A DNA stretch of 64,000 bases from Mariniflexile maritimum. GTDB lineage: Bacteria > Bacteroidota > Bacteroidia > Flavobacteriales > Flavobacteriaceae. Positions within the stretch are counted from its first letter, which is position 1. Every line of letters begins with the position of its first letter. The translations under genes and the position numbers were made by a program. The notes beneath the pieces are model-generated. The model saw only the letters and a program-made list of their open reading frames with translations, made no database searches and was not told the origin of the DNA. The stretch lies in NCBI RefSeq assembly GCF_009746565.1, contig NZ_WRPN01000004.1:186001-250000 (forward strand). The letters are read 5' to 3'. Shown in pieces: positions 27,531 to 29,347 of this stretch.

Positions 27531-27592
27531 TGGGATTTTTGGTTGATTGAAGTAATGAAGCATGCATATGGCTCCATATTGTTCATGTTTTT

Positions 27593-29182
27593 TCATATTG
27601 GAAATCCTTCAATCCTTAATTCATTTAGTTCTGTTTCGGTGAATTTGTCAATAACTAAATCCATTTTCCTTTTATCATTTCGTTTATGATAGACCCAATT
27701 ATACAGTTTTCCCATTGTCGATTCACCAGTAATCCATTTACCTTCAGGATTTATAGTTTTATTGTATCTAAATTCTTTCCATTCTTCTGTACGGTCTTTT
27801 GCTCTGGGAATATTATCCCAACTTCTAATTTCGTTGAATTGAAGTTCCCAAGCTGCATTAATTTCTTGTTTTAATTCGTCAGAAATTTTTGCTTTACGTT
27901 TTAGCATTTGTCGGTTAAATGTTTTTTGATATTCAACTTTAATTGGATTTTTATCATTTAGTAATTGCTCAATAAATCTTTCTACAGTATGTTCTGGCTT
28001 TCTACTGGTTCTTGTAAAATCAAATCCCAATTCTTCAATTTTTAGTCTAAGGTCAATTTTTCGCTGCTTAGGCTTTTTCCCTTTTGTTGCTTGATTAACT
28101 CCTACAAGCCACGTCCCTAAACGATAACCATTAAATTTATATCTATGATTTACTTGAATTTTTTCTCTCTCACTTGAATCATTTAATGCGTCTGAAAGAA
28201 TACTTAACCATTCATCCTCAATATTTTGCTGTAATAACTCGTGAGCATCATCAAAAAAGAAGTCCTGGTCCAATAATTTTCCAATATGCTCATACTTTAA
28301 TATATATTCGGCATCAATCGAATCGTCAGCAAAAAATATCTTTTGTAGCTGATACCATCTATATAATGCTTTTATTGGATAATCTCTTGGTATTGTAACA
28401 TTCCCATTATTATTCTTTTTGAATTCTTTAAATAACTCGAACATTTCATCCCATGTATCAAGATATTTAGAAGTTATACTAAATTTAGATTTTTCACCTT
28501 TCTTCCCTTTGTTCTGCTGTTTAATTTTTTCTTTTAATTCTTCTATCTCTTGCTTAGTCCGTCCTTTTTTATCACTTCTTTTGTTTTTTGAATTTTCATT
28601 TTCAAAAGTTAGAAACTCTTCAACAACGATTCCTTTCTCAACAAAACTTACAAGTAATTCTGATGTTAATAATTCAACTTGATTAATTTTCTTGTTTAAG
28701 ATTTCATCAAAATATTCAAAGTATTGTCTTTGCAATTTTAAACCACTATTATCTGATTTTGAATAATCCAGTAGAACAGATGCTTCAATATTTCCATTTA
28801 TTGTCAGACCTGCTTTTGTAAGATTTGAAGAACCAATTATCATTCTTTTCTCAAATTCTCCGTCAAAAAAGAAAATCTTCGGATGAAATATATAGTTGCT
28901 ATCAGAACGATAAGTAAATGTTTTAATATCATTTGCTATTAAAAACTCCAATGCTTCTTTTGATGTCCCTCTATCTGCAATCCCAAGATACAGAGTGAGG
29001 CTTTTGTACCTAGCTTTTGCTTCTAATAATTCTTTAGAAATCAAATCAAGTCCAGCCTTTTTTGTATACGCAGAAAAACCAATAAAAGAATTATAATTAT
29101 CATCCAAAAAAGATTCTCTCAGATAATAATGCACTGTTTTAGATTTATTGTTTAAACCGTGTCCTATAAATTCAGTTTTCAT
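27593..29182 (-). CDS. PLD-type nuclease domain fused to helicase-associated (HA) repeats
   Basis: A 529-residue protein with the start taken at MKTEFIGHGL (29182). The N-terminal ~170 residues hold a single phospholipase-D nuclease motif: H100-x-K102-x4-D107 then GSSN at 117-120 (HPKIFFFD...GSSNLTKAGL). One HKD copy means it would dimerise to form the active site, as Nuc and BfiI do. A lysine/glutamate-rich coiled linker (~200-245) precedes three segments with the W...LGxW/WY...GF pattern of helicase-associated domains, which bind DNA. No helicase or methyltransferase partner is adjacent. It is AT-rich and interrupts conserved genes. A defence role is inference. Confidence 0.7.
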   Translation of the reverse strand: MKTEFIGHGLNNKSKTVHYYLRESFLDDNYNSFIGFSAYTKKAGLDLISKELLEAKARYKSLTLYLGIADRGTSKEALEFLIANDIKTFTYRSDSNYIFHPKIFFFDGEFEKRMIIGSSNLTKAGLTINGNIEASVLLDYSKSDNSGLKLQRQYFEYFDEILNKKINQVELLTSELLVSFVEKGIVVEEFLTFENENSKNKRSDKKGRTKQEIEELKEKIKQQNKGKKGEKSKFSITSKYLDTWDEMFELFKEFKKNNNGNVTIPRDYPIKALYRWYQLQKIFFADDSIDAEYILKYEHIGKLLDQDFFFDDAHELLQQNIEDEWLSILSDALNDSSEREKIQVNHRYKFNGYRLGTWLVGVNQATKGKKPKQRKIDLRLKIEELGFDFTRTSRKPEHTVERFIEQLLNDKNPIKVEYQKTFNRQMLKRKAKISDELKQEINAAWELQFNEIRSWDNIPRAKDRTEEWKEFRYNKTINPEGKWITGESTMGKLYNWVYHKRNDKRKMDLVIDKFTETELNELRIEGFPI

Positions 29183-29347
29183 GGTGGTTTTGAGGTATAT
29201 TTTATCCAAACAAAAATCTATAAAATCCTTATAATATCCATATCAAAAGTTAAACAAATTTCCATATTTTTTTCCGCAAAATCAATTGTTTTATAAATTC
29301 ACACCAATTTTTTTAATGACATTATGGCATTTTCACAATATTGGCAG

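Follow-up and report, generated by a model that had tools for sequence, protein, structure and literature searches.

A PLD nuclease carrying a helicase-associated domain in Mariniflexile maritimum: a candidate restriction-like enzyme with no linked methyltransferase

A gene inserted between the TIGR01777 oxidoreductase gene and grpE of Mariniflexile maritimum encodes a 529-aa protein in which a PLD nuclease domain is joined to a helicase-associated (HA) domain and a separate C-terminal module. We lean towards the view that the product is a homodimeric, metal-independent PLD nuclease that restricts foreign DNA without a linked cognate methylase and that is either Type IV-like or conditionally activated. 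A single-gene restriction or anti-phage nuclease had been proposed from the sequence alone. The restriction-like part of this proposal is now well supported by the residues and predicted fold of the protein, by an Mrr nuclease in the corresponding interval of a sister genome and by relatives in restriction-modification operons, while a role in defence is supported rather than proven.

Gene and domain organization

The window is the 64,000-nucleotide stretch of contig NZ_WRPN01000004.1 that was analyzed, and all coordinates refer to it. The gene occupies 27593..29182 on the minus strand, stop codon included, and starts at an ATG at 29182; the alignment of its relatives begins at the same M1. 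The gene had been described as AT-rich, and its GC content of 29.4% is indeed the lowest among the 48 window ORFs longer than 150 aa. A promoter scan returned fewer sites than were found in shuffled sequences.

The protein consists of an N-terminal PLD nuclease domain (residues 1-190, 28613..29182), a charged linker with a net charge of +7 (residues 191-235, 28478..28612), an HA domain (residues 243-300, 28283..28456) and a C-terminal module (residues 318-529, 27596..28231), all encoded on the minus strand. Pfam recognizes PLDc_2 (E 4.4e-7) and HA (PF03457, E 1e-6), both of which barely exceed their curated cut-offs; the HA match covers residues 243-300 only and scores 29.4 bits against a cut-off of 28.4. 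No NCBIfam family scored above its cut-off for the protein, PHROGs gave zero matches, and PF09565 (the NgoFVII family) gave no match at E <= 1. A search of open papers found no characterized protein with the PLD-HA architecture.

The PLD nuclease head

The protein contains a single HxK motif, H100-P101-K102 (28877..28885, minus strand), which is followed after four residues by D107, and a G117-S-S-N120-L-T motif (28817..28834, minus strand). Composition-preserving shuffling reproduced the combined HxKx4D and GSSN pattern in 6 of 20000 cases. The catalytic residues of BfiI are H105, K107, N125 and E136 (PMC4081073). A phmmer alignment that is weak as a search match (E 0.13) places H100, K102, N120 and E133 onto these four residues; E133 (28784..28786, minus strand) lies inside a shared NIEAS motif. 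All four residues are invariant across ten PLD-HA proteins. The nuclease motif reported beforehand is thus present with its catalytic set intact, but its aspartate is not conserved, since D107 is replaced by E or N in PLD-HA relatives.

In an AF2 model of the full protein built from a seven-sequence alignment, the PLD domain (residues 1-190) is mostly of high confidence and is the sole confident part. The model points to a restriction-enzyme fold. Its top solved structure is SauUSI (Z 20.3, rmsd 2.1, 165 residues) followed by BfiI (Z 17.5, rmsd 2.9, 180 residues), and the lower matches include phospholipase D (Z 14.8), NucT (14.7), Nuc (14.5) and the NgoAVII R-protein (11.8). Tdp1 is also present among the structural neighbours. 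The likeness to BfiI suggested by the sequence-only reading therefore holds both for the four catalytic residues and for the fold, in which BfiI ranks second. In BfiI, R.NgoAVII and SauUSI the PLD domains of two subunits pair to form one active site (PMC4267653, PMC7913695). As the window protein has one HxK per chain, it would likewise need to dimerize, as BfiI and SauUSI do.

BfiI (PDB 2c1l) is a Type IIS enzyme that resembles the window protein in its single-HKD PLD domain, in its matching H/K/N/E set and in its order of N-terminal nuclease, linker and C-terminal DNA-reading part. BfiI differs in using a B3-like DNA-reading domain and in having two methylases (PMC4081073, PMC4267653), whereas in the window protein an HA domain and a separate module stand in that position, and no methylase gene is linked. 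SauUSI (PDB 7clg), a Type IV enzyme, shares the nearest PLD fold and an HxKx4E/D motif, and its lack of a cognate methylase recalls the absence of a linked one here, but its PLD domain is accompanied by an SF2 ATPase, a coupler and an SRA target domain (PMC7913695), none of which were found in the window protein. R.CglI and R.NgoAVII of the NgoFVII family similarly combine a PLD domain with a DNA-binding C-terminus, and some PLD-HA relatives match PF09565. These enzymes differ in having a linked C5 methylase, a B3 tail and a requirement for an ATPase partner; in its absence they do not cut DNA (PMC4267653), so that a PLD protein without such a partner may be inactive. The tail of the window protein instead aligns with HA profiles, although its fold prediction is without confidence. 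PADLOC returned weak matches to DrmC of DISARM and ZacB of Azaca that involve the PLD domain only, and membership in either system was rejected because no partner components are adjacent.

The HA domain and the C-terminal module

Three HA repeats had been proposed from the sequence. Residues 243-300 are a true HA domain, but the two following segments are instead the halves of a separate mobile module of 212 aa and are HA-like by profile. Pfam recognizes nothing in residues 318-529 and misses both halves. When the C-terminal family was aligned profile-to-profile (hhalign) with an HA profile made from classical repeats, residues 318-395 (VNHR..LGTW..LGFDF; 27998..28231, minus strand) scored 31.5 and residues 455-529 (WKEFRY..LYNWV..EGF; 27596..27820, minus strand) scored 24.4, while shuffled profiles peaked at 15.2 and 15.9, respectively. 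Both scores exceed those of all shuffles, which makes an HA-like character well supported for the first half and plausible for the second. The tail is a family of its own, which by these alignments appears to have two HA-like halves, the second of them weak. AF2 modelled the HA and tail regions with pLDDT mostly below 50-60; the tail alone, modelled from two sequences, reached a pLDDT of 48, and structure comparison gave no fold match.

The tail family occurs in three forms: as a stand-alone protein of about 205 aa in several Flavobacteriaceae-type genomes, in the PLD-HA fusion and fused to a PIN_8 nuclease. In one locus (L033), a PIN_8 nuclease (PIN_8 E 2.5e-51) carries the tail module of the window protein, and a further locus (L076) probably encodes a second such fusion. 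The lone modules (L036-L044) are found in several genera beside housekeeping genes and match no Pfam family. Other PLD proteins carry six HA domains (L032, L034 and, by alignment, L035), three HA domains (L052) or an HA domain with a different tail (L045 and its relatives L046-L049).

HA domains are classically appendages of helicases. Descent of the window protein from a local HA helicase was rejected, as no other HA protein was found in its own genome. That HA domains bind DNA is a supposition based on the company that they keep. At E <= 1e-6, only six carriers of HA domains were found in 249 genomes of the family, a sample drawn without regard to PLD, and all six are in a DNA-attack or Dnd-type setting. 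Two are PLD-HA proteins (G220, G229), and one is an Mrr-ResIII helicase with seven HA domains (L122). The latter resembles the window protein in fusing an HA array to a nuclease, but its nuclease is of the PD-(D/E)XK type and is coupled to an SF2 helicase. In two genera, the gene in front of DndD and DndE/HerA-type genes encodes an HA protein that also matches sigma-70 region 4 (L123:5391-11433, L124:5586-11634); the arrangement resembles a Dnd-like operon, as yet undescribed, in which HA would be the reader. The remaining carrier, a three-HA protein, adjoins a gene for an Mrr-nuclease/nSTAND ATPase protein (L121:5566-9010), and the two probably form one operon. The presence of HA on a helicase-free nuclease, together with the DNA-attack setting of every HA protein sampled in the family, makes HA a candidate target reader. 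Outside this sample, a contig from a viral collection carries first a gene for an NgoFVII-type PLD protein and then another for a protein with four HA domains (L082:7069-9279), a two-gene form of the PLD and HA combination.

A variable slot between TIGR01777 and grpE

The gene is flanked by the TIGR01777 oxidoreductase gene on one side and by grpE and dnaJ on the other. The homology of the congener backbone ends at about 27531 and returns at 29229-29311, and the segment from the TIGR01777 stop to the grpE promoter (27532..29239, no strand) differs in each congener examined. The same interval holds different cargo in every one of five congeners: an Mrr restriction nuclease and an HNH-like ORF (L069), an HNH_5 protein (L067), small ORFs (L068), a predicted 547-aa protein without a Pfam match (L071) and almost nothing (L070). 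In a further genome (G229) the two backbone genes are nearly adjacent, with no insert. The interval is therefore a replaceable cargo slot, or small hotspot, and two of its other occupants are nucleases. The break in backbone homology and the differing congener cargo bear out the insertion that had been proposed at this point. There is no integrase between the neighbours and there are no long or clear flanking repeats. The genes that adjoin the window gene are housekeeping genes, with no defence genes among them.

Absence of a linked methyltransferase

The PLD relatives without HA domains differ from the PLD-HA proteins in their gene neighbourhoods. A DNA methyltransferase gene is adjacent in 7/7 loci of non-HA relatives (L050, L051, L053-L056, L077), most of which also have a small HTH gene, and the layout is that of a restriction-modification operon. 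At the PLD-HA loci, the window included, a linked methyltransferase was found in 0/13, with the proviso that some of these contigs are too short to show both flanks. Fisher's test gives p = 5e-5 on a slightly smaller count and 6e-4 once the loci are collapsed to lineages. HA arms thus go with the absence of a linked methylase, which makes self-recognition through a partner methylase unlikely. The linked methyltransferase gene that marks the Type II PLD restriction-modification systems (BfiI, NgoAVII) is thus missing beside the window gene and 12 PLD-HA homologues, by a method that detected one at all seven non-HA loci.

Five of the non-HA loci (L050, L051, L054, L056, L077) contain a repeated operon of a PLD nuclease of about 400 aa and an M.Eco57I-like methyltransferase, which is likely a PLD-based restriction-modification system; one copy (L077) comes from a contig in the viral collection. 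The host genome itself (C1, C2, C3, C8, C11-C14, C34, C38) has about ten N6-methyltransferase matches and several C5/N4 matches, and so carries a rich restriction-modification load. An enzyme that depends on modification would need to spare DNA bearing any of these marks of its own host.

Distribution and neighbouring defence genes

The PLD-HA gene is present in a single copy in its own genome, and its spread is patchy. Relatives occur in 3/6 genomes of the genus, one of them a tail-only protein, and in 21/299 genomes of the family sample, many of them tail-only or PLD-only. The nearest relative (L022, DOTG01000044.1) is 75% identical over its full length and comes from a Marinilabiliales MAG in which its neighbours are unrelated; either it was transferred between orders or the contig was mis-binned. 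The copy in G229 (L030 / L002) has an in-frame TAG inside the PLD part and is a pseudogene or an assembly error. Phage records contained zero relatives, viral contigs contained zero relatives of the tail, and plasmids gave five matches to the PLD part only.

Some homologues lie close to known defence genes. One PLD-HA gene (L031) is near a CBASS cyclase (9e-157) and a TIR effector (1e-118), and CBASS adjoins 1/12 of the PLD-HA homologue loci. A PIN_8-tail gene (L033:8748-10349) is followed by PD-T4-2 A/B (2e-162, 3e-66). The PLD protein with six HA domains in L032 is encoded in an integrative element with a tyrosine recombinase and an MkoA-like (Mokosh-like) helicase, the latter a partial match. 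Another PLD-HA gene (L045) is within a mobilizable element, relaxase or transposase genes are near some relatives, and transposase-like fragments near two others (L035, L047) were judged by eye only. The neighbours of the stand-alone tail proteins are mostly generic ATPase- and helicase-type matches.

A family-wide survey of neighbours had been put forward as a check on the defence reading, and its outcome was mixed. No metabolic neighbour is conserved across the homologue loci, and the CBASS, PD-T4-2 and Mokosh-like cases are in keeping with defence, but strong defence matches in about 3/13 homologue neighbourhoods (one a PIN_8 fusion, one a partial helicase) against 0/7 controls are not a significant enrichment. 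The test falls short of significance because most copies are solitary, and enrichment of PLD-HA homologues with defence genes is best regarded as suggestive.

Proposed mechanism and alternatives

In the mechanism that we propose, two copies of the protein would pair through their PLD domains to form one active site like that of BfiI and SauUSI. This site would cut DNA by a phospho-histidine route that needs no metal ion, as in BfiI, and the HA domain and C-terminal module would bind DNA and select the target of the nuclease. The gene, which is the cargo of a variable slot, most likely serves to destroy incoming phage or plasmid DNA. Since no cognate methyltransferase travels along with it, foreign and self DNA are probably told apart otherwise than by a partner methylase. 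The enzyme might recognize foreign DNA by a modification or a structure that it bears, in the manner of Type IV enzymes, or it might be activated during infection.

Activation during infection is taken further if the protein is a toxin of abortive infection, whose tail would detect a phage product or a state of the DNA and thereby permit non-specific cleavage that stops the cell. We consider this unlikely. A solitary gene without a methylase would suit such a toxin, as would the relative that adjoins a CBASS cyclase-TIR pair and the tail on a PIN_8 nuclease beside PD-T4-2, and the linker of BfiI has been proposed to repress its PLD nuclease (PMC7913695). However, the gene has no conserved neighbour that could act as a partner sensor or antitoxin, and the HA-rich tail resembles a DNA reader more than a ligand sensor. 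It is improbable that the protein is instead a Type II-like enzyme whose HA and tail arms read a fixed sequence while an unlinked host methyltransferase protects the sites. The BfiI-like catalytic domain and the many N6 and C5 methyltransferase matches of the host would allow this, but the contrast between the PLD-HA and the non-HA loci in linked methyltransferases speaks against it, and a restriction gene that moved without its methylase would be lethal to new hosts.

The two readings that leave out restriction are each very improbable. A nuclease for the repair or recombination of branched or damaged DNA, with no role in defence, would agree with the use of PLD folds in repair, with Tdp1 among the structural neighbours and with the classical place of HA domains on helicases. 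The nearest folds, however, are restriction enzymes and not Tdp1, and the gene is low-GC cargo of a variable slot that has been transferred and is patchily distributed. The low GC content and solitary position, together with the tyrosine recombinase, relaxase or transposases near relatives and the stop codon that breaks the G229 copy, could also mean that the gene belongs to a mobile element or is a selfish gene in decay, with no current function, a reading that we rate as the least probable of these alternatives. Against this, the frame of 529 aa is intact, all catalytic residues are kept and full-length identity to a copy from another order is 75%, which implies selection.

A more far-reaching form of the restriction reading is a tentative possibility. 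The protein could represent a new one-gene, methylase-free class of restriction in which PLD and PIN_8 heads are swapped on a shared HA-type reader that follows an undescribed code for a foreign mark or structure.

Implications

The window protein joins HA to a nuclease without any helicase. The literature searched contained no tested role for HA domains, and the idea that they read the target for defence nucleases can now be put to the test. PLD enzymes with other tails are accompanied by a methylase and PLD-HA enzymes are not, a contrast through which self-protection can be tested directly with a single gene. There would also be practical use for a nuclease that works as one protein, needs no metal and has a new reader.
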